Source: Acidobacteriaceae bacterium (GTDB lineage: Bacteria; Acidobacteriota; Terriglobia; Terriglobales; Acidobacteriaceae). Taken from it: a stretch of 64,000 nt of DNA. Location: contig PLSM01000096.1 of the NCBI GenBank assembly GCA_003165075.1, positions 1 to 64,000 on the forward strand, in the 5' to 3' direction. Shown in pieces: positions 3,769-28,194 of this stretch (its first letter is position 1; each line of letters opens with the position of its first letter). The notes under the pieces were generated by a model. The model searched no databases and was not told the origin of the DNA. It saw only the letters and a program-made list of their open reading frames with translations. The position numbers were made by a program, and so were the translations under genes.

Positions 3769-3807
3769 GACTATGAACGTGTCCTTGTAATGACCGAAGG
3801 GGGAAGT

Positions 3808-4491
3808 GTGAATTACTTCGCGGTGGGTATTCTTGTGTTCCTGTTCTTAATTGGCTTAACTCGCACTGGAAGCAAAAGTCGCAATCTCAAGCTAAAGCCA
3901 AAGCAGAGGCGCACCGCTAAGACCAGTACGCAGGCTTCCCGCACGACAATCAAGATTCCCCAAGCGGCGAACCACATGCACGATTCTATGTGGACGAAGG
4001 TGCTCCCACAGGCCCGGCAAGCGGCTCGCGCCTACGGCGCTGCGCTGATTGGTAAAGGTATCCTCCGAGAAGGTGAACCAGACAGACCCGATGATGGCCC
4101 CAATCCTTACGGAAAATGGGAGATCACAGAAGCCACCCGCGCCAGATTGCGCAACCTCGTTGTCAAGGCCATTGACAGCGGCTGGACCGTAAACCAGTTG
4201 CAGCATGAAATCATTGTTGGCGAGAAGCTTTCAGCTGCCTGCGCGCTGACGATTGCGTGGACTGAAACGGCCATCGCGCAAGCCCACGGAGCGTATGAAG
4301 CCGCCAAAGAACACGGGATGCGGTGGAAAAAGTGGATCATAGCTGAGAAGTCATGCGCCGTCTGCATCGCAAACGCGGCCCAAGGGCGCATTCCGATAAA
4401 CGAACCTTTCAGGTCGGGGACTGATTTTCCCCCTGGACATACATGCTGCCGATGCGGTGTGGGATACTATGAAACCCAAAAAGGTGATTGA
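3808..4491 (+). CDS. Membrane-anchored protein with Mu gpF-like (phage head morphogenesis) domain
   Basis: The C-terminal half resembles the gpF/SPP1 gp7 minor head protein domain. It has a helical ARTET-like stretch (AWTETAIAQAHGAYEAAKEHG), a CAVCIANAAQG motif, then NEPFRSGTDFPPGHTCCRCG, the usual Cys/His pattern near the end of this domain. The N-terminus is instead one transmembrane helix (NYFAVGILVFLFLIGL) and a basic linker. The start is taken at GTG 3808 because AGGGGGA sits just before it; an ATG at 3790 lacks a ribosome site. No other phage structural genes are nearby, so this is probably a domain reused in another role, such as an effector or surface protein. The domain call is moderately sure; the function is unknown. 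Confidence 0.65.
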   Translation: MNYFAVGILVFLFLIGLTRTGSKSRNLKLKPKQRRTAKTSTQASRTTIKIPQAANHMHDSMWTKVLPQARQAARAYGAALIGKGILREGEPDRPDDGPNPYGKWEITEATRARLRNLVVKAIDSGWTVNQLQHEIIVGEKLSAACALTIAWTETAIAQAHGAYEAAKEHGMRWKKWIIAEKSCAVCIANAAQGRIPINEPFRSGTDFPPGHTCCRCGVGYYETQKGD

Positions 4492-4540: not shown

Positions 4541-5341
4541 ATGCCTCATGGTACCTGTGCCCTTTGTCGTGAATCCGCCGATCTTCAGGACGGCCATTTG
4601 ATAGCGAAAGGTTTCTACAAGGCTGTTCGAGAGCCTGCTAGTGTAATCAGCAACCCCGTCCTCGTGACCGCTTCCACAACATTCCAGACAAGTGAGCAGG
4701 TGAGTGACTATTTGCTCTGCAGACGCTGCGAATTGCGGCTTGCGCAGAATGGTGAAGAATGGGTATTGAGGAACTCACCGCATCGCAACGGACGGTTCCC
4801 GATGCGCGAGGCTCTCTTGCGCTCTCCCATCAAGAGCACAATTAGGGCGGGGGAATCCTACAAGGAACCGTATGATTCTGCTTTTGATTTGGAACGACTC
4901 GTCTATTTTGCGGCCAGCGTTTTTTGGCGTGCGTCTGTCCACACATGGGATCGGGTAAAGCACCTTATGGAAAGAGCGCCGCTGCCACTTGAACTCAACG
5001 AACAGTTGCGACTCTTTCTTTTACATCTGGGCGCATTTCCAATAGACGCTGTGCTCCTCATCAGTGTCTCGGCATCGAAGCCTCTACCGCATATCATTTT
5101 TCCGCAAGCGAATAAGCGGGCAAACCTGACAGACATAATAGGCTATGATTTTGCAGTTCCAGGCTTACAATTTCGCCTAATGTATGGGAATATTCCCGAT
5201 CTGATGAAGCAGATATCTGTGGCTGTCCCGCCCCATGCGGTGCTTCTTACTGACCTCGTTGAAAGAGAGATTAAGGCACGTCGTGATGAGTTGAGGAAGA
5301 CGAGCAGGATGGTTGGGAGCTTGGGCTCGGCGGCTTCCTGA
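4541..5341 (+). CDS. HNH-like zinc-finger protein, hypothetical
   Basis: 266 residues. The N-terminus has CALCRESADLQDGHLIAKG, then LLCRRCELRLAQNGE around residues 60-75. This CxxC...DGH...CxxCE layout is seen in a group of HNH-nuclease-like proteins often annotated as hypothetical. The rest is helical, with no other motif recognised. A GGAGG ribosome site lies before ATG 4541. It sits 49 bp after the gpF-like gene and may be co-transcribed. A nuclease or defence role is possible but unproven, since only the zinc-binding part of an HNH motif is clear. Confidence 0.6.
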   Translation: MPHGTCALCRESADLQDGHLIAKGFYKAVREPASVISNPVLVTASTTFQTSEQVSDYLLCRRCELRLAQNGEEWVLRNSPHRNGRFPMREALLRSPIKSTIRAGESYKEPYDSAFDLERLVYFAASVFWRASVHTWDRVKHLMERAPLPLELNEQLRLFLLHLGAFPIDAVLLISVSASKPLPHIIFPQANKRANLTDIIGYDFAVPGLQFRLMYGNIPDLMKQISVAVPPHAVLLTDLVEREIKARRDELRKTSRMVGSLGSAAS

Positions 5342-19325: not shown

Positions 19326-19529
19326 TTGACGCATCCACACCCCGTCTGCTTGCAAGCCAGTTCATTATTTGCTATGGCCCTCCCGGAAGCAATTGGCCAG
19401 CATTACAGCGCGCAGGAGTTGTACCAGCAGATCAGCAACTGGGCAGCAGAAATGAAAGTCGAGAAGCCGCTGATGAAGGCAATACTCAATGCGGCTGACC
19501 GTAAACCTGCCGATTACATACGACAATAA
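19326..19529 (+). CDS. Possible small protein or gene remnant
   Basis: 67 codons. From about residue 17 the sequence (MALPEAIGQHYSAQELYQQI, KPLMKAILNAADRKPADYIR) looks protein-like and helical, but no family is recognised and no ribosome site is seen. It lies just outside the left inverted-repeat arm. Confidence 0.3.
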   Translation: MTHPHPVCLQASSLFAMALPEAIGQHYSAQELYQQISNWAAEMKVEKPLMKAILNAADRKPADYIRQ

Positions 19530-19579
19530 GGATGGGTTCCCATCGCTGCCTTTGCCGTCCTCTGCAGATACAGATTCCC

Positions 19580-19844
19580 GGGGGATGACATCGTCGCCGG
19601 TCACGCGGGCGATAGCGCCGCGTACATAAGGCGCCAGGAAGTCATGAATGGACCGGTCCCACCGGCGCATGGGGGTGCCGATGGCCTCCTGCTGAATGTA
19701 CTGGCTGAGAGCTGTACGCTGCTGGGCCAGCTTGGTGTGGAAGGGAGTGGGGATGTAGCGCATGGGGTTCAGGGCGCTCTGGTCCCCTTCGAAGAACATC
19801 TCCTCGGTGTATTTACCGAAGAGACGACCTAGACGGCCATGCAT
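19580..19844 (-). pseudogene. Gene fragment in left repeat arm
   Basis: It encodes HGRLGRLFGKYTEEMFFEGD, NPMRYIPTPFHTKLAQQRTA and IHDFLAPYVRGAIARVTGDD, strongly protein-like with no recognised family. A further piece (AAKAGTWVEQNNRP) precedes it in another frame, implying a frameshift. The reading becomes random beyond the arm edge, so this is a captured piece of a larger gene. Confidence 0.6.
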
Positions 19845-20079
19845 GGCCTGTTGTTCTGCTCCACCCAGGTGCCGGCTTTGGCTGCGAGCTCAAGTGAGTA
19901 GATACTCCAAGTGTAGTCAATCCCGGCAGACCCGTTTGACAGGCTTCCCTATCAGAAGTAATGCCCATATGAGTATGACGATTTTGCCGTTCCACCCCGC
20001 TTTCCGCACTGACGCCTTCCGCCGCCAGCCCTGTTCCAAAATGGCTCTGAAAACACGACCTCTAAACCCAAGAAAGCAA

Positions 20080-20106
20080 ACGGCCGGATCTGCCCGATCC
20101 GGCCGT
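20080..20106 (-). terminator. Stem-loop terminator in left arm
   Basis: ACGGCCGGATC and GATCCGGCCGT form an 11-bp stem with a 5-nt loop. On the minus strand it is followed by TTTGCTTTCTTGGG. The matching hairpin in the right arm differs by one compensated base pair. Confidence 0.75.
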
Positions 20107-20350
20107 GTCAAAAGGTGTGGGTTGGGAAACACAAGACAGAGCAGAGATAAGAGAAGCCGTCCAACTCCTCCGGGCATCATCGGCGATGCCTAGCTGTCCC
20201 ATCGTCACCGATCAGAGCTCAACGAGTGACTCGGTGATTTATCAACAACGGACACCGCGGTGTTAGAGGCGGCAATTGTGACATGCGCAGCAGCCAACCG
20301 CATCGGCATCGAGCAATGCGCTCAATGAGAACTGTTCGCAATGCTTATCA

Positions 20351-23300
20351 TTAGAAATTCACCTTCCCTCCAAGTTGTACCTGGCGGGGGCTGTTGGATG
20401 TGTAATTGATCACCCCGAAGTTCGGGTCGTCAACAGCGGTGTCCGGTGTGCCGAAGACAGGGTGATTTAGCGCGTTCTCAGCCTCGAGGCGGAGCTCGAA
20501 GTTCATCCCTTCATGCAGCTTGGAAAGAGAGAACTCCTTTTCCACCGACATGTTGGTGTTGAAGGCCGTAGGGGTCCGGATCATTCCGGTGGCTCGGGGA
20601 GCATTTCCAAATGTATAAATTGGCGGCAATTGGAATGCTCCAGGGTTGGCGAAATAGTTATTGATCCAGTTAGAGTCTGGCCCCTTGCTGCGCAACGGCA
20701 TGCCGACGATATTGGGCCGCTGCACGCCATACGTTGGCAGCGAAGTTCCGTCATAGGTTGAAAAGGCAAGCGGCCGGCCATACGAAATCCGCCAGACGCC
20801 GTTGGTCTTCCATCCGCCCACGATCGCATCCAGCACGCCCGGCATATGGCCAAGGAGAGCCTTTCCGCGCCCCACCGGCAAATCGTACGTGTAGGTGAAT
20901 TGATAGACGAAAGGAATGTCGAACGTGGATAGGCTCCGTTCGAGCCACGGCTTGTTTGGATCCACAAGGCTAGAAAAGCCACCCAGCCAAGTGGTGTTGT
21001 CGTCCGGCGCTGAGGCATCGTCCATTGACTTGGACCACACAAAGCTGACCAGGAACTGCAGGCCGTTGGAGTAACGCTTCTCCGCGGTCAGTTGCATGGC
21101 GTGATATTCCGAGTTGGCGATCGGGGGCGGTTCGATTGTGACGCCACCGGGGAACTGAGGATATGGAATCTGCAGCATATATTGCTGTATCTGCTGCTGC
21201 GAGAGGATGCTGCCTGCGTCCGTGTTGATCCCATAGAAGGGATTGTTCACCATGGTGGTGAGGTTGTTGATCTGATCTGCGCTGTAACTCTCCACCTCGG
21301 GTCCAAGATGGTTGATGTAATTGTCGCCGGAATAATAGAGGTGGGTCCCTTTTTTTCCGACATACATCATATTGGTCAGAATCTTGAAAGGAAGCTGCAT
21401 CTCGATCCCGAAGCTCCAGCTCTGTTCATAGGGCGTGTTGGTCACATTGCGTAGCGGTCCATTTGCAGCGTATCCATAGTCGTTCATCAAACCAAGAGAG
21501 CTGCCCGCCGGCTGAATCAGTCCATTGGGGAAGGGATTGCTCAATCGCAGGTACGGCGTTGCACCGTCGTTGTGGTAGGTCGCGATCGCACTGGTGTACT
21601 GGTTAAACCCCTGTGAGCCATAGGGCGCGACACCGGTGGCACCAGACCGCGGCTGCGAATAGTAGATGCCATACCCGCCACGAACCACGGTTCTGGGACC
21701 GGCCTGCCAGGCAAAACCGAAGCGCGGCTGGATGTCTTTCCAGTCGCCATTCACGATCCTGCGCTCACTAGAGCTGGCGAAGACTTCGCCGCCCGTCAAG
21801 GTCAGCCCCGGAACAGTGACCGGAAACGGTGCGTTCAGGTCCAGCCAGTTCTGGCGGTTGAAACGATCGGTACGGGGTATGGAAACGTCGTAGCGCAGAC
21901 CGATGTTCAGAGTCAATTTGTGGTTCACCTTCCAGTTTTCCTGGGCAAACCACGCATACTGACGGTCCTCGGTGGCCGGCCGGTCCTGGATTTCGTAGTA
22001 GGTGCTTCCGTTTGCGTCGTTCGCCATCTGGCCCATCATGAAGGCAGCCATGCCGTCTCCGCCGCAATCGGCAAAATCGTTTGGACACTGCGATGTGCCG
22101 TAATGATCAAAGCTGAAGATGCCGTTCGGCGCATTGGTCTGAATGTAGTTCATCTGGTGTTGGCGGCCTTCAAATCCGATTTTCAACTCATGATCGCCAA
22201 TCACTTTGTTCACTGAGACGGTGAGCTGCCCCGTGTCCTGACCCTGTCTGTAATTGCCGTAAGGGTCGCCGCCAATGCTTGTGTAGCCGGCGGAATAGTA
22301 AGTTCCCTGATCGATAAACATGGACGGGACGCCCTCAAACCCGTTTGAGTTCAGATAAGACGGGAACCCGAGTTTGTTAACCGGATCGGCGATCCCGCCA
22401 GCCCCGTTGTATGCCAGGATCTCCTCCGCACCCCTGGTGAAGCCAAGTGTTGCAGTAAGCAAGAGCGTTTTGGAGAACGTATGTACATCGTTAAGAGTGA
22501 ACAGGTGAGCCGTGCCCTTGTTGGGACCGCCGGCACAGGGGTCGGCGAAGTTACCGAAGCAGTTATACGAGACGGCACTATTCCACTCCTGCGAGTACTT
22601 GGCACTCATCAGGTTGTTTTCGTTGAATCTATGGTCGATCTTGATGTCGAATTGGTCGTTGGGGTATCTGCTGGCCCCGGAGGTGATCCAGTTGAGATAG
22701 ATGGTTGGATTCGACATGTTCGCAGTGGGCTCAGGAAACATCTTCATCATCGCTTGAGCTATCGGGTCGATCAGGTCTCCGGGGCCTCCCGACAACTGGT
22801 AAGGTGTGCCGGCCAGATTGGGATTTCCTGGACTGGCATAGGCGCCGATGTCGTTGTAGGGGATGTATGTTTTCCGATAGGCTCCCGCGGCGCTTGAACC
22901 ATCGGAGCTGGCGGGCTGATAAACGCCGGAGTAAGGATCCCAAATCTGTCCCGCCGCAACGGTGCACATGCCCGTACTGTCGAATCCCCCGCCCTGCGCC
23001 GAACACACCTCTCCAAAGTCTCCGCTATTGCGCTCGGCGCCTGTGGGAACCCCAGCCTGATAAGTGGCCATGGAGCTTTGCCGCGTGGCGTCGTAATCGA
23101 AGAAAAAGAAGGTCTTGTTCTTGAAGATAGGTCCGCCGAAGGTACCGCCAAAGTTGTTGCGATGGACCGGCGGAATTGGGATTCCATTCAGATTATTGAA
23201 CCAGTTGTTGGCATCAGTGATGGTGTTGCGGACGAAATCATAGACTCCGCCATGAAAGGTATTCGTTCCGGAGCGCGTGATCATGTTGACTACAGAGGCG

Positions 23301-24046
23301 CCGGAAAATCCGTACTCGGCGCTGAAGTTCGACTGTTCCACGCGGAACTCGTCCACTGCCTCCGACGACGGAGTATACGTAACCTGCGTGACTCCGCCGT
23401 TGGGCTCATAGTTGGTAACCGTTGCACCATCCATCAGAACGTCAGCGGTGGAATTGCGGCTGCCGTTGGACACAAAGTTCGTGCCTGTGCAATTGATGGC
23501 ACACTGATCGTCTGTCTCGGTGACGCCCGGCGTCAACATGGTCAGGTCCATGACATAGCGATCGACAAGCGGTAGATCGTTGATGAATTTCCTGTCGATC
23601 ACCAAGCCGGTGGTGGCATCCTGTGCGTCGAGTGCCTGGGCTTGGGCGTTCACCTCGACAGTCTGCGAGGAACTGGACACCTTGAGACTCAGGTCGGCCG
23701 TCGCATTCTGGTTCACGTCTACCCGAATACCGGTGCGCACCGTTTTCTCGAAGCCCGGCATCTCCGCGGTTACCGAATAGATACCCGGAGGAATGGAGCG
23801 ATAGAGATAGCGTCCGGCTCCATCCGTAGTCGCATTGAATGCGTAGCCCTTGTTCTGATCGGTCAGGGTCAGCTTTGCCCCCGGGATCACGGCTCCGGTC
23901 GGGTCACTCAGCACGCCGGTTACGGTTCCGAAATAGCCTTGTCCAAAAGACCCCGCCGGCGTCGCCAACAGAGACGCGAGCAGCAGTATCCAATGAAACT
24001 GCAATCTGCACCTATGCTTCAACTCGGTAAAGAAGCCCTTCCTCAT
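20351..24046 (-). CDS. TonB-dependent receptor with carboxypeptidase-regulatory-like domain (Oar-like)
   Basis: 1231 residues; outer-membrane importer of large substrates. The signal peptide ends near LLASLLATPAGSFGQ. Residues about 38-125 form the carboxypeptidase D regulatory-like beta domain (GTVTGVLSDPTGAVIPGAKL). A plug domain (DLPLVDRYVMDLTMLTPGV, then VLMDGATVTNYEP) follows, then a roughly 900-residue beta barrel rich in Asn and Tyr. The protein ends in an aromatic-rich barrel strand, VQLGGKVNF, as outer-membrane barrels do. It is divergent to the GH18 chitinase gene, with about 400 bp between them. Location inside the chitin cassette suggests chito-oligosaccharides as substrate, which is inference. 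Confidence 0.93.
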   Translation of the reverse strand: MRKGFFTELKHRCRLQFHWILLLASLLATPAGSFGQGYFGTVTGVLSDPTGAVIPGAKLTLTDQNKGYAFNATTDGAGRYLYRSIPPGIYSVTAEMPGFEKTVRTGIRVDVNQNATADLSLKVSSSSQTVEVNAQAQALDAQDATTGLVIDRKFINDLPLVDRYVMDLTMLTPGVTETDDQCAINCTGTNFVSNGSRNSTADVLMDGATVTNYEPNGGVTQVTYTPSSEAVDEFRVEQSNFSAEYGFSGASVVNMITRSGTNTFHGGVYDFVRNTITDANNWFNNLNGIPIPPVHRNNFGGTFGGPIFKNKTFFFFDYDATRQSSMATYQAGVPTGAERNSGDFGEVCSAQGGGFDSTGMCTVAAGQIWDPYSGVYQPASSDGSSAAGAYRKTYIPYNDIGAYASPGNPNLAGTPYQLSGGPGDLIDPIAQAMMKMFPEPTANMSNPTIYLNWITSGASRYPNDQFDIKIDHRFNENNLMSAKYSQEWNSAVSYNCFGNFADPCAGGPNKGTAHLFTLNDVHTFSKTLLLTATLGFTRGAEEILAYNGAGGIADPVNKLGFPSYLNSNGFEGVPSMFIDQGTYYSAGYTSIGGDPYGNYRQGQDTGQLTVSVNKVIGDHELKIGFEGRQHQMNYIQTNAPNGIFSFDHYGTSQCPNDFADCGGDGMAAFMMGQMANDANGSTYYEIQDRPATEDRQYAWFAQENWKVNHKLTLNIGLRYDVSIPRTDRFNRQNWLDLNAPFPVTVPGLTLTGGEVFASSSERRIVNGDWKDIQPRFGFAWQAGPRTVVRGGYGIYYSQPRSGATGVAPYGSQGFNQYTSAIATYHNDGATPYLRLSNPFPNGLIQPAGSSLGLMNDYGYAANGPLRNVTNTPYEQSWSFGIEMQLPFKILTNMMYVGKKGTHLYYSGDNYINHLGPEVESYSADQINNLTTMVNNPFYGINTDAGSILSQQQIQQYMLQIPYPQFPGGVTIEPPPIANSEYHAMQLTAEKRYSNGLQFLVSFVWSKSMDDASAPDDNTTWLGGFSSLVDPNKPWLERSLSTFDIPFVYQFTYTYDLPVGRGKALLGHMPGVLDAIVGGWKTNGVWRISYGRPLAFSTYDGTSLPTYGVQRPNIVGMPLRSKGPDSNWINNYFANPGAFQLPPIYTFGNAPRATGMIRTPTAFNTNMSVEKEFSLSKLHEGMNFELRLEAENALNHPVFGTPDTAVDDPNFGVINYTSNSPRQVQLGGKVNF

Positions 24047-24450
24047 GTCCCCTCCAACTCAAGAAAACCCTCTGCGGCAGGCTCACCGGATCCGCTGCCT
24101 TCTTCCAAAATGCCTCGAATCCCGTTACAGCTTGCGTATATTGTCATCTTTTGGAAACCAACTACGATTCACAGATCAAAATAAGTTACCAGACAATATA
24201 CTCCAATCCTTAGACAAACCGGTCGATTCTTTGACCGCACGGGCGGCTCGTTGCCTGGGATCACTGAACACGTCGTTGGGCAAGAATAACCCGCGATGCG
24301 CCATTCTTCTCGCTGGCGGAGTCGGGGTACCCGTACTGATTGAGAAAAGTGCAAACCGATCCTCGACTGTTACACTTGCCACGCGAACGCACGTGCGCAA
24401 TTGACCTAGTCCATTTGAATCTGAATCAAAGCCAGGCAGGAGGCTATACC
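24047..24450. other. Divergent promoter region
   Basis: Separates the minus-strand receptor from the plus-strand chitinase. No gene is supported. Near the right end AGGAGG (24438-24443) serves the TTG start of the chitinase. No clear operator palindrome was recognised. Confidence 0.5.
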
Positions 24451-25659
24451 TTGCTTAACTTGGATGAGAGCGAGCAGACCTGTCATAGAATCGAAGCAAA
24501 TCACCGAATTCTGTCCGGTGCAAGCCTGTTCGCTCTCGCTTGCCTTTGCTTCTGTTTTGTCTCGCGCGCAGAAACGAACGCCCCCCGTCCAGTGATCGTT
24601 GCCTATGTCTTTCCCAGGGATAGCCTGCTGCGCGACGGAGAGATTGCAGCGCTGAAGCTGACGCGTATCAACTATGCCTTCGCCAATATCAAGGATGGCC
24701 GCATCGTAAACGGTTTCGCACATGACGATCAAAATCTGGCTTCACTGGTGGCACTGAAACAGACGAACCCCACTCTGACCGTCCTCGTCAGTGTAGGCGG
24801 ATGGCTCTGGTCGGGTGCATTTTCCGACATGTCTCAAACCAGACAAAGCCGGGCCATCTTTATCTCGAGCGTGGTCGAGTTTGTAGGTCGCAATCACCTC
24901 GATGGGTTGGATATCGACTGGGAATACCCGGGATTACCCGGAGCAGAGAGTCATTTTCGCGTCGAAGACAAGCAGAATTACACGCTGCTACTCAAAGAAC
25001 TTCGCAAGCGCTTCAACCAACTGGAGAAGGAACTTCACCGACGGCTATACGTGACTATTGCGACGGGCGCCTCGTCCGAGTTTCTCGCGCACACCGAGAT
25101 GAACAAAGTGAAGAAGTTTGTCGATACGGTCAACCTGATGGCCTACGACTACTACGAACCAGACTCCGATGCGATCACGGGCCACCATGCCCCTCTCTAT
25201 ACAAATCCTGCTGATCCCAAGAAGATTTCGGATGACAATTCGGTTCAGGAGTATGAAATGGCCGGTGTTCCTGCCGCAAAGATCGTGCTCGGCGTTCCCT
25301 TTTATGGGCATTCGTGGGGCCAGGTGCCCGAGACGAACCACGGGCTGTTTCAACCTGGGAAAGAGATTCCGCATAGCTACGCGCCCACCGGCGATGGTCA
25401 GGAGGCCATGATAAAAAACGGATTTATCCGCTACTGGGACCCCATAGCCGCAGCTCCCTATCTCTACAATGCGGAGAAGCAAATCTTCGTTTCCTTGGAC
25501 GACCCCGAGTCGCTTGCGTTGAAATGCAAATACGTGCTCACCCATAAACTCAGGGGCATCATGTTCTGGGACTATGAGAGCGATTCCACCGGGGCGCTGC
25601 TCAACGCAGTCAACGACGGGCTCAACAAGAGCCCTGACTTGCAAGGCGTGACGAAGTGA
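24451..25659 (+). CDS. GH18 chitinase or chitinase-like hydrolase, exported
   Basis: Hydrolyses beta-1,4-GlcNAc links. The catalytic motif DGLDIDWEYP (151-160) has the full DxxDxDxE pattern, with Glu158 as acid. The SVGGW motif (114-118), NLMAYDYYEP and late MFWDYESDSTG also fit the family. The TTG at 24451 is chosen because AGGAGG lies seven bases upstream and it yields a signal peptide (LSGASLFALACLCFCFVSRA). The frame is open further upstream to 24340, but without a ribosome site. The stop overlaps the NagX-like gene by 4 bp. Exported location and neighbours suggest chitin breakdown outside the cytoplasm. Confidence 0.93.
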   Translation: MLNLDESEQTCHRIEANHRILSGASLFALACLCFCFVSRAETNAPRPVIVAYVFPRDSLLRDGEIAALKLTRINYAFANIKDGRIVNGFAHDDQNLASLVALKQTNPTLTVLVSVGGWLWSGAFSDMSQTRQSRAIFISSVVEFVGRNHLDGLDIDWEYPGLPGAESHFRVEDKQNYTLLLKELRKRFNQLEKELHRRLYVTIATGASSEFLAHTEMNKVKKFVDTVNLMAYDYYEPDSDAITGHHAPLYTNPADPKKISDDNSVQEYEMAGVPAAKIVLGVPFYGHSWGQVPETNHGLFQPGKEIPHSYAPTGDGQEAMIKNGFIRYWDPIAAAPYLYNAEKQIFVSLDDPESLALKCKYVLTHKLRGIMFWDYESDSTGALLNAVNDGLNKSPDLQGVTK

Positions 25660-26891
25660 CTACAACGGCACCTGCGCCATCCGTAGCGCTCTCCGAGCGG
25701 CCCGCCGCCTCACGTCTGGTTTCCATTGATATCTTCCGCGGTCTCACGATGACGGTGATGATCTTCGTCAACGAACTGTCCGGGATCAAGGGGCTGCCCT
25801 GGTGGAATTACCACATGAAGGCCGACGTCGACGCGATGACCTATGTCGATATGGTCTTTCCCTTCTTCCTGTTCATCGTCGGCCTATCGATCCCGCTCGC
25901 CATCCGGCACCGGCTCAAGCGGAACCCTTCTCTCTTTGCACTGTGGATGCATGTTGCTCTTCGAACCGCCAGCCTGATGACGCTCGGGCTGATCCTGACC
26001 AACGCCGATGACGGCGATGCGTCGCGCATGATCGTGAGCCCCGCTGTGTGGGCAATCCTCGCCCTCACCGGCGCTGCCCTCTTCCTGAACGACTATGGCG
26101 AATCCAGCCGCCATGCCACACTGCTAAGCGGGTTGCGCATCTTTGGCCTTGTCCTGGTCGTCGCCATGTTCGCGATCTTCCGCCACACAGCAATTGCCGG
26201 TCACGCTTCTTGGATCGATATCTCGTACCCCGAGATTCTTGGCCTCATCGGCTATACGTACTTCGCCGTTGCCATCCTGTACATTCCGACACGCCGCTGG
26301 CTGTGGGCTCCGCTGGCGTGGTTCGTTGCGATGATGGCATTCAATTCTCTAAGCGCCGCAAGATGGATTACTTTTGCCGGGCGACTCCCGTACTATGTCT
26401 GGCCATTCAGCAACGGAGCCATGGCCGGAATCACTCTCGCCGGCATCGTCACGTCCGTCATCTTTCTCGGGGCTCATCGCTGGCAGTCGGTTGGCCAGAA
26501 GACATTTCTCGGCCTGTCGTTCGGTGTCTTGTCCCTGATTGCTGGATGGTTTCTCACCCAGCTCGGCATTTCCAAGATCAGGGCGACGCCCACCTGGAGC
26601 CTCTACAGCATTGGCGCTGCCGTTCTGTTATTCACCGCGCTCTATTGGATCTGCGATCTGAAAAAGAAGACTGGGTGGGCCTTTTTTGCCCGTCCCGCAG
26701 GCTCCAATACGCTGACGACCTATTTGCTTCCGGATTTCTGGTATTACATCCTCACTGCGACAGGCATTCGCTATTTCGACACGCACTTCAATTACGCGTG
26801 GCCGGGAGCTGTTAGATGCGCTCTTTTCACAGCGTTCATTCTAGGCACCGCCGGTCTCCTGACTCACTGGCGGGTCCGACTGCGCCTCTAA
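25656..26891 (+). CDS. NagX-like membrane acyltransferase (DUF5009 / heparan-alpha-glucosaminide N-acetyltransferase-like)
   Basis: 411 residues with about ten membrane helices. The opening RLVSIDIFRGLTMTVMIFVN and the following YVDMVFPFFLFIVGLSIPLA match the DUF5009/NagX family, whose eukaryotic relative acetylates glucosamine residues across a membrane. Translation begins at a GTG overlapping the chitinase stop (GTGA), so the two are coupled. The last codons reach into the right inverted-repeat arm by about nine bases, yet the C-terminus looks normal. A role in processing GlcNAc or glucosamine during chitin use is inferred from the family and the operon. Confidence 0.9.
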   Translation: MTTTAPAPSVALSERPAASRLVSIDIFRGLTMTVMIFVNELSGIKGLPWWNYHMKADVDAMTYVDMVFPFFLFIVGLSIPLAIRHRLKRNPSLFALWMHVALRTASLMTLGLILTNADDGDASRMIVSPAVWAILALTGAALFLNDYGESSRHATLLSGLRIFGLVLVVAMFAIFRHTAIAGHASWIDISYPEILGLIGYTYFAVAILYIPTRRWLWAPLAWFVAMMAFNSLSAARWITFAGRLPYYVWPFSNGAMAGITLAGIVTSVIFLGAHRWQSVGQKTFLGLSFGVLSLIAGWFLTQLGISKIRATPTWSLYSIGAAVLLFTALYWICDLKKKTGWAFFARPAGSNTLTTYLLPDFWYYILTATGIRYFDTHFNYAWPGAVRCALFTAFILGTAGLLTHWRVRLRL

Positions 26892-27047
26892 CACCACGGT
26901 GTCCGTTGTTGATAAATCACCGAGTCACTCGTTGAGCTCTGATCGGTGACGATGGGACAGCTAGGCATCGCCGATGATGCCCGGAGGAGTTGGACGACTT
27001 CTCGTATCTCTGCTCTGTCTTGTGTTTCCCAACCCACAGTTTGTGAA

Positions 27048-27084
27048 ACGGCCGAATCGGGCAGATTCGGCCGTTTGTTTTCTT
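27048..27084 (+). terminator. Stem-loop terminator in right arm
   Basis: ACGGCCGAATC and GATTCGGCCGT form an 11-bp stem with loop GGGCA, followed by TTGTTTTCTT. It lies 157 bp after the acyltransferase stop. It shows a paired change relative to the left arm. Confidence 0.8.
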
Positions 27085-27309
27085 GGGTTTAGGGGTCGTG
27101 TTTTCAGAGCCATTTTGGAACAGGGCTGGCGGCGGAGGGCGTCAGTGCGGAAAGCGGGGTGGAACGGCAAAATCGTCATACTCATATGGGCATTACTTCT
27201 GATAGGGAAGCCTGTCAAACGGGTCTGCCGGGATTGACTACACTTGGAGCATCTACTCACTTGAGCTCGCAGCCAAAGCCGGGACCTGGGTGGAGCAGAA
27301 CAACAGGCC

Positions 27310-27574
27310 ATACATGGCCGTCTAGGTCGTCTCTTCGGTAAATACACCGAGGAGATGTTCTTCGAAGGGGACCAGAGCGCCCTGAACCCCATGCGCTACA
27401 TCCCCACTCCCTTCCACACCAAGCTGGCCCAGCAGCGTACAGCTCTCAGCTAGTACATCCAGCAGGAAGCCATCGGCACCCGCATGCGCCGGTGGGACCG
27501 GCCCATTCATGACTTCCTGGCGCCTTATGTGCGCTGCGCTATCGCCCGCGTGACCGGCGACGATGTCATCCCCC
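27310..27574 (+). pseudogene. Gene fragment in right repeat arm, with internal stop
   Basis: Same fragment as in the left arm (LFGKYTEEMFFEGD, NPMRYIPTPFHTKLAQQR), but with a TAG after ALS, around 27451, and other substitutions. It is clearly non-functional. Confidence 0.65.
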
Positions 27575-28194
27575 AGGGAAGGGCAGCACCGCCGGGACTT
27601 GGACACGCTGAGCGGACTACGTCCCTCCCTTCCGTTCCCCTTAAACGCCCCCTTTTCAGTTCGCTCCCGCCTGCCAGGCCCGCCAGCCCGACAAGTCCCG
27701 TCTGTCCAGCGCCCTGGCCGAACACGCAACTGTTGATATCATTCATCCATGCATCAGGCCCCAACAAATCGTCGCCGACTAAGCGCGATCTTCCGCGGTG
27801 GAATTGAAACCTCGTTTATCGTCTTTCTCTTTTATTCAAATCTCTTGATGCGAGAATTCACAGCGAGTAGTGGAAAAGCAAGAGCCTAATGTTTGCCTTT
27901 AAAGATATCCTTACGGGTACGAATTTTCTGATTGCCATTATTTCCGCGCTGATCGGATGGGTGGTGTTTGAAAACTTGCGAAATAGGCTTTAAGGTTTAT
28001 GACACGGTCGGCAGAATGCTGGGTTGAGTCCACATAAGGGCTGGAAAGTGGATGAGACGGCGGAGACTATAACAAAGTGTGCGGTGGTCGCCCTTGATGG
28101 GGCACATCAAGAACCAGTTCCCCTCGCGCTGTACAGAGCAGCGAATCGTAGCTGCATTCAAGTCAACTGACGATTTACTTGACGAAAAATAGGA
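27575..28194. other. Intergenic region after the cassette
   Basis: No firm gene. A 34-codon frame at 27889-27993 is listed separately. The rest shows no recognised RNA or repeat. Confidence 0.5.
27889..27993 (+). CDS. Possible 34-residue membrane peptide
   Basis: The frame encodes one hydrophobic helix (FLIAIISALIGWVVF) followed by ENLRNRL, the shape of a small single-span membrane protein. The ribosome site is weak. It could be chance. Confidence 0.3.
   Translation: MFAFKDILTGTNFLIAIISALIGWVVFENLRNRL

Follow-up and report, generated by a model that had tools for sequence, protein, structure and literature searches.

A chitin-use gene block between inverted recombinase-type sites in an Acidobacteriaceae genome, probably a non-autonomous member of an inverted-site cassette family

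Small serine recombinases of the Gin, Cin, Hin and Pin type invert DNA segments (the G segment of phage Mu, the C segment of phage P1, the P segment of e14), and in these systems the recombinase gene lies beside one or both of two inverted palindromic sites, about 26-28 bp long, that bound the segment. The C segment of phage P1 also has long inverted arms. We describe here a block of chitin-use genes enclosed by long inverted arms in a stretch of 64,000 nucleotides from an Acidobacteriaceae bacterium (assembly GCA_003165075.1, contig PLSM01000096.1, positions 1 to 64,000), hereafter the window, which is part of an 81-kb contig in a genome of 194 contigs and 5.68 Mb. Like the Gin-type segments, the block is bounded by two inverted palindromic sites (20104-20131 and 27023-27050). 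The adjacent recombinase of those systems is present in relatives of the block and was not found in the arms of the window. We consider it likely that the two arms are inward-facing copies of a recombinase unit without its recombinase, within a family of inverted-site cassettes, and the block is probably a decayed, non-autonomous member of a cassette family that can be flipped and perhaps swapped.

The family differs from the Gin-type systems in several respects. The cargo consists of an entire gene block of unrelated function, not of alternative gene ends, and spans about 1.7-25 kb across the family (7.7-25 kb in five pairs of sites of the complete genome G076). Its arms are repeats that often hold two recombinase copies, with partner genes of helix-turn-helix (HTH) or ribbon-helix-helix (RHH) type, and its site is an element of about 101 bp, often with a hairpin. 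Tn3-type resolvases and their res sites share with it the recombinase family, the C-terminal HTH and a half-site-like extra motif at the start of the element (seen by eye), but the sites are here inverted and not direct, and no transposase caught the eye in the arms of G076, where no systematic search was made. The staphylococcal cassette chromosome and recombinase-mediated cassette exchange also place variable cargo between serine-recombinase sites. The Ccr enzymes of the former are large serine recombinases that use direct attL and attR sites, in contrast to the small recombinase and inverted sites seen here. We found no paper on such cassettes in Acidobacteria and none that joins "DNA invertase" with "Acidobacteria", although most subscription papers lay outside the search and an earlier description may exist. 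In PMC3174227 the word "recombinase" occurs once (XerD), and "resolvase" and "invertase" are absent. According to PMC12529663, the e14 segment inverted by PinQ measures 1797 bp, and defence genes often have recombinases nearby.

The arms, delimited with a repeat finder and an ungapped comparison, lie at 19577-20271 (left, forward strand) and 26883-27577 (right, with the orientation of the left arm when read on the reverse strand). Each has 695 nt, of which 672 are identical, with 23 substitutions and no indels (97% complementary according to the repeat finder), and a spacer of 6611 nt separates them. Given this length and identity, a chance origin of the repeat is not an issue. The first-pass annotation had described near-identical arms in reverse complement, which is borne out, although its 692-nt arms were 3 nt short at the outer ends. 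It had also named the three enclosed genes correctly, as family scans agree: a TonB-type outer-membrane receptor (20351-24046, reverse strand; OMP_b-brl_4 and CarboxypepD_reg), a GH18 chitinase (24340-25659, forward strand; Glyco_hydro_18) and a NagX-like membrane protein (25656-26891, forward strand; DUF5009), the final 9 nt of which are overlapped by the right arm. Finally, it had seen no recognisable transposase in the arms, and the one arm open reading frame (ORF) that was scanned (19365-19844, reverse strand) has no Pfam or PHROG family. The recombinase of G076, searched against the source genome, had no match within the arms.

Each arm carries a copy of the site element, at 20031-20131 on the forward strand (E 4.2e-24) and at 27023-27123 on the reverse strand (E 1.7e-22), so that the two face each other. 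The 101-position model was built from 35 sites, both of these included. The inner end of the element is an imperfect 28-bp palindrome, our proposed crossover site, with its centre between 20117 and 20118 on the left (20104-20131, forward strand) and between 27036 and 27037 on the right (27023-27050, reverse strand). The palindrome was recognised from a scan of the 35 sites together with junction alignments: the best centre lies 14 nt from the inner end, with 54% complementarity over 14+14 nt, and the runner-up reaches 40% with 14-nt halves and 42% with 8-nt halves. The central dinucleotide, presumably that of the crossover, is GT in both window sites and is equal on both sides in 16/16 pairs. 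A G+C-rich hairpin, possibly a terminator, occupies 20080-20106 (forward strand) in the left site and 27048-27074 (reverse strand) in the right one, and the two hairpins differ by a compensated pair (arm nt 511 and 523).

The site is widespread among relatives. At E <= 0.001 the model has matches in 45 of 80 genomes of the genus and in 31 of 300 genomes of the family, the latter spread over 11 of 79 genera, counting that of the source genome. Orientation was counted on 109 sites at E <= about 1e-9, a cut-off set after the lists had been seen. Among the 16 cases of neighbouring sites at most 30 kb apart, 15 are inward-facing, one has both sites in the same direction and none is outward-facing; at least 15 inward cases out of 16 would be expected under random orientation with a probability of about 1e-8. 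The five neighbours more than 30 kb apart are all in G076 and face outwards, as expected between successive pairs. In this complete genome, a first search gave five pairs, each in the order + then -, and at the same cut-off as above 12 of the 13 sites form six inward pairs (P1 to P6). The complete genome G196, from another genus, has two sites, which form an inward pair. Weaker matches were left out of the count, among them two sites in the same direction 19.5 kb apart (G000:C22), an inward pair at 6.6 kb (G005:C135), a same-direction case (G309:C202), and overlapping opposite matches in G002, G191 and G076. The last are single palindromic copies (G002:C91:44393-44476, G191:C94:1262-1330 and G076:C1:1251271-1251339), two of which lie inside cassettes. 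A separate scan of 48 of the 54 named recombinase loci (L151, L152, L153, L157, L161 and L166 being omitted) found inverted repeats of at least 60 bp in nine: L116, L117, L129, L131, L133, L141, L144, L149 and L156. The named and the G-numbered sets are not independent, because L117 is G191:C63, L129 is G041:C33 and L131 is G042:C6.

We then compared the two sites and their inner sequence side by side in 16 pairs. In ten of them (G076 P1, P3, P4 and P5, G048, contig C123 of the source genome, G002, G196, G191 and G298) the identity between the arms visibly breaks off in the 28-bp palindrome or no more than 1 nt from its edge; in G076 P5, it stops 2 nt beyond the palindrome centre. In G076 P2 and G042, whose side-by-side alignments were out of register, BLAST places the arm ends 2 and 4 nt beyond the site, and G076 P6 is too diverged for the boundary to be read. 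Small serine recombinases use symmetric sites of about 26-28 bp. Most boundaries between arm and cargo thus fall at a symmetric site of the size suited to such enzymes. The element could instead be a bidirectional terminator or insulator that closes gene blocks at both ends without any recombination. Many copies do have the G+C-rich hairpin, and at 5/9 of its predicted pairs a sequence is found in which both sides have changed and pairing is kept. Yet 10 of the 14 invariant columns of the site lie outside the hairpin, three loci (L117, L126 and L127) have lost the hairpin sequence and kept the rest, and neither the palindrome at the boundary nor the adjacent serine recombinase would be expected of a terminator, which makes this explanation very improbable.

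The recombinase is found at the matching place in the relatives. From outside to inside, the fullest units comprise a leader, often a small HTH-like gene, sometimes an RHH-like protein of about 60 residues, the small serine recombinase, sometimes a small membrane protein, and then the site of about 101 bp, whose palindrome abuts the cargo. All ten long arms of G076 match the P1 recombinase of that genome without stops, reading towards the cargo. The recombinase ORFs encode 195-219 residues in four of the pairs; in P2 the ORF listing gave an antisense frame, and the recombinase match spans 199 residues. The P1 protein has the N-terminal resolvase domain (PF00239) and a C-terminal HTH. Its best matches of solved structure are two DNA invertase chains, 4m6f (1e-25), which we take to be phage Mu Gin, and 3uj3, followed by the Tn3 and gamma-delta resolvases. 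Residues R9, S11, D74, R75 and R78, presumably the expected active-site positions, are invariant in seven aligned homologues. Upstream of the recombinase, inspection by eye revealed the RHH-like protein of about 60 residues in P1 and P3 and an HTH-like ORF in P3, P4 and P5 (confirmed as HTH_31 for P3), and neither was noticed in P2. After the recombinase, a protein of 86-89 residues with a hydrophobic N-terminus runs into the site in P1, P2 and P5; for P1, neither this membrane protein nor the RHH-like protein has an NCBIfam family. Elsewhere, the recombinase frame itself extends into the site (G041), there are two recombinases of 211 residues (G191), or both recombinases are shortened, one to 148 codons (G196). 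In L133, L144, L149 and L156, short inverted repeats of 68-160 bp start at one end of the recombinase or immediately downstream of it, and the site model, a hidden Markov model, has no match at these repeats.

Within the named collection, the recombinase family is almost confined to Acidobacteria, mostly metagenome-assembled Acidobacteriaceae, the exceptions among the 54 loci being one labelled Bacillota (67% identity) and one labelled Gracilibacteria (25%). Among the best 80 of 90 relatives on viral contigs, one exceeds 50% identity to the family; it reaches 77% and lies at the end of a 214-kb viral-collection contig (L211, 10001-10402). The 34 plasmid records at E <= 1e-30 contain no close relative, because every one is below 60% identity.

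Compared with these units, the arms of the window look like the product of a deletion. In G035, the counterpart of arm nt 343-408 lies on the outer side of the site at a distance of about 1.12 kb (E 5e-9) and is, by eye, the start of an HTH-like ORF. Overlapping parts have matches on the outer side as well, at about 1.13 kb in G041 (3e-6) and G298 (1e-4), at 1.36 kb in G077 (1e-5) and, weakly, at 1.37 kb in G076 P5 (0.001) and P1 (0.018). In the window, about 50 bp separate the end of this leader segment from the site, versus 1.1-1.4 kb in the fuller units. A relic of the leader and the first codons of the HTH-like gene thus adjoins the site at 19919-19984 (forward strand) in the left arm and, by identity to the left, at 27170-27235 (reverse strand) in the right one. 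The simplest reading would be a single deletion that began early in the HTH-like gene and reached the site, with subsequent copying or conversion between the arms. The differences between the arms are unevenly placed: nt 485-541, directly on the outer side of the palindrome centre, contain 8 of the 23, a density of 14% versus 0-3% elsewhere. With random placement, the chance of so tight a cluster would be about 0.012.

By its sequence matches, the arm is composite. Arm nt 5-292 resemble sequences of G071 and G072 (77-81% identity), and nt 298-449 match a contig end in G047 (72%). The outer left piece (19581-19844, reverse strand) is an 88-codon fragment akin to sequence of unknown function in G071 and G072, and the equivalent 88-codon fragment on the right (27310-27573, forward strand) contains one TAG. 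Whole-arm matches in the source genome are the two arms only, and five further partial copies correspond to nt 443-569; in the 80 genomes of the genus, the arm matched 29, mostly through nt ~450-555. The homology to G071 and G072 continues beyond the end of the right arm and not beyond that of the left, as if the left were a copy. This would suit a passive inverted duplication, in which an accident of replication or repair copied a cargo-adjacent segment in inverse orientation and the site is irrelevant; the window arms, whose identity passes the palindrome, fit it as well. Such an accident fails to explain why inward-facing pairs recur in many genomes of several genera around unrelated cargoes, and it does not account for the loss of identity at the palindrome in the majority of pairs. 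We find it unlikely as a general account, although the outer portion of the window arms may have been copied in this way.

In the five long pairs of G076 the inverted arms measure 2.1-2.5 kb, with the sites at their inner ends, and are 95.8, 99.6, 100, 100 and 100% identical within pairs. Between pairs, the long matching parts are only about 70-78% identical, and the outer ends vary. Elsewhere arm identity ranges widely: 80.6% over 1017 bp in L116, 87% over 2.2 kb in G191, 92.5% over 254 bp in G042, 93.7% over 206 bp in G298, 99.4% over 626 bp in G196, 99.6% over 236 bp in G041 and 100% over 102 bp in G048. In G298, two near-identical arm starts (C136:1-211 and C139:1-206, 96%) continue into different sequence, and draft assemblies seem to break at such arms.

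These data bear on a composite transposon, that is, two inverted copies of an insertion sequence carrying the genes between them. Similar arms do flank passenger genes, in relatives the arms hold a recombinase gene, and the three near-identical arm starts of G298 enter different sequence as copies of one element would. Independent insertions would not, however, be expected to give arms matched within pairs and not between them, as in G076. No target-site duplication longer than 4 nt was found at the outer ends of the seven inverted repeats examined, the outer ends are variable (in the window, the G071/G072 homology runs past one arm end and not the other), none of the 16 neighbouring site pairs faces outwards, and no transposase family was found in the scanned arm ORF of the window. 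A composite transposon is therefore quite improbable. Of the two possibilities raised in the first-pass annotation, "mobile" in the transposon sense is not supported, on the grounds of the missing duplications and unfixed ends. An invertible cassette, or one acted on in trans, fits the presence of a serine-recombinase-type site in each arm, the recombinase at the matching place in relatives, and the deletion-like arms. That annotation had also weighed two observations that would tell against it, and the outcome is split: the chitinase-NagX order occurs in relatives without the arms, against it, and the arms are not scattered unrelated repeats, since their sites pair inward round many unrelated cargoes, in its favour.

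The cargoes are indeed diverse. Those of the window and of G002 combine a TonB-type receptor with a glycoside hydrolase (GH18 and GH28, respectively), G041 has a GH127 enzyme and G196 a TonB receptor. The G076 pairs enclose McrBC-like proteins (P1), an NMT1-like protein (P2), a polysaccharide transporter (P3) and a GGDEF protein (P6). Others hold HipA (G048), a Fic-like protein with HigA (G191), Fic with DUF4143 (G002), an FG-GAP/Ig-like giant (C123 of the source genome), an NmrA-like protein (G042) or RHS repeats (G298). In the P3 cargo (L053, 6485-9836), two ParB-like proteins and a longer recombinase-like protein stand in a row by eye, possibly a nested mobile element. The cargoes of P4 and P5 share seven blocks in the same order at 77-90% identity (86-90% over most of the length), as well as one 300-bp block that lies inverted at another place, whereas outside the site their arms, where they match, reach just 68-71% identity. 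Because cargo identity exceeds arm identity, separate histories of cargo and arms are suggested by these sequences. The Fic genes of G002 and G191, from different genera, are 79% identical in DNA, and their recombinases 71-74%.

It is conceivable, if on balance doubtful, that the family works as a natural platform for cassette exchange, in which small serine recombinases would swap gene blocks between loci and genomes in either orientation and homogenise the arms as a by-product. The blocks concerned serve glycan use, restriction, toxin-antitoxin functions and surface polysaccharide. This reading draws on the P4/P5 cargoes, which are more alike than their arms, and on G298, where a third near-identical arm leads into different sequence.

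For the cassette family itself, we envisage that the recombinase would cut at the palindrome centre and invert the cargo, and that inversion, together with homologous recombination or gene conversion, would keep the arms alike. Any action on the window cassette would then require a recombinase encoded outside it, which one of two homologues in the source genome may supply. Several observations weigh against the inverted-site cassette interpretation. The window pair lacks the recombinase found in the arms of relatives, and the two homologues are distant: the intact one (C43) shares just 54% identity, and the 3.5 kb around it gave no site match; the other (C69), cut by a contig end, is 57% identical, with no site detected in the surrounding 2.0 kb. 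The left halves of the window crossover sites are unlike (AAAAGG and ACAAAC). Identity passes the palindrome into the cargo side by 140 bp in the window, 79 bp in G041 and 31 bp in L116, and the arms are unlike in C123 of the source genome (75%, 237 bp), G002 (76%, 278 bp) and the sixth G076 pair (85%, 60 bp). A single site occurs on 78 contigs, many of them cut by contig ends, and 39 of the 48 named loci scanned have no inverted repeat in stretches that reach at most 10 kb inward, many likewise cut. Both inversion and cargo exchange are inferred from sequence alone, and a regulatory benefit is not obvious because inversion between identical arms leaves the immediate context of the cargo unchanged.

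If flipping or swapping does take place, these cassettes would represent a recurring and easily recognised route by which soil Acidobacteria exchange genes for nutrient use and defence, and the site model would be a direct means of finding them. Gin-type recombination would be extended from phase switches to whole-operon cassettes, and the paired sites and their enzymes could be tried as new parts for DNA editing.

As for the chitin genes, the chitinase-NagX pair on its own is an ordinary operon. At E <= 1e-60, GH18 is found in 40 and DUF5009 in 32 of 200 family genomes, and the two are adjacent by coordinates in many of them (e.g., G217, G233 and G225). The three stretches inspected around such pairs have no site match. 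In G225 a TonB receptor stands just before the pair, with 35% identity in its best part, and in G217 and G233 the window receptor has no match beside the pair at 1e-10. For the chitinase and the DUF5009 protein, the closest relatives found (62-66% identity) belong to other genera, which fits a possible acquisition of these genes.

Around the cassette, the window has no tRNA that could serve as an integration point and no sharp step in base composition at the arms. A search of 79 genus genomes with the ilvD-side flank matched either ilvD itself or, at query nt ~149-420, a dispersed repeat, which lies to the right of the cassette (27726-27997) and is matched in several genus genomes at about 66-93% over differing parts. 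To the left is a prophage-like stretch, in which the proteins at 3790-4491 and 4541-5341 match phage portal/minor head families and further phage families.

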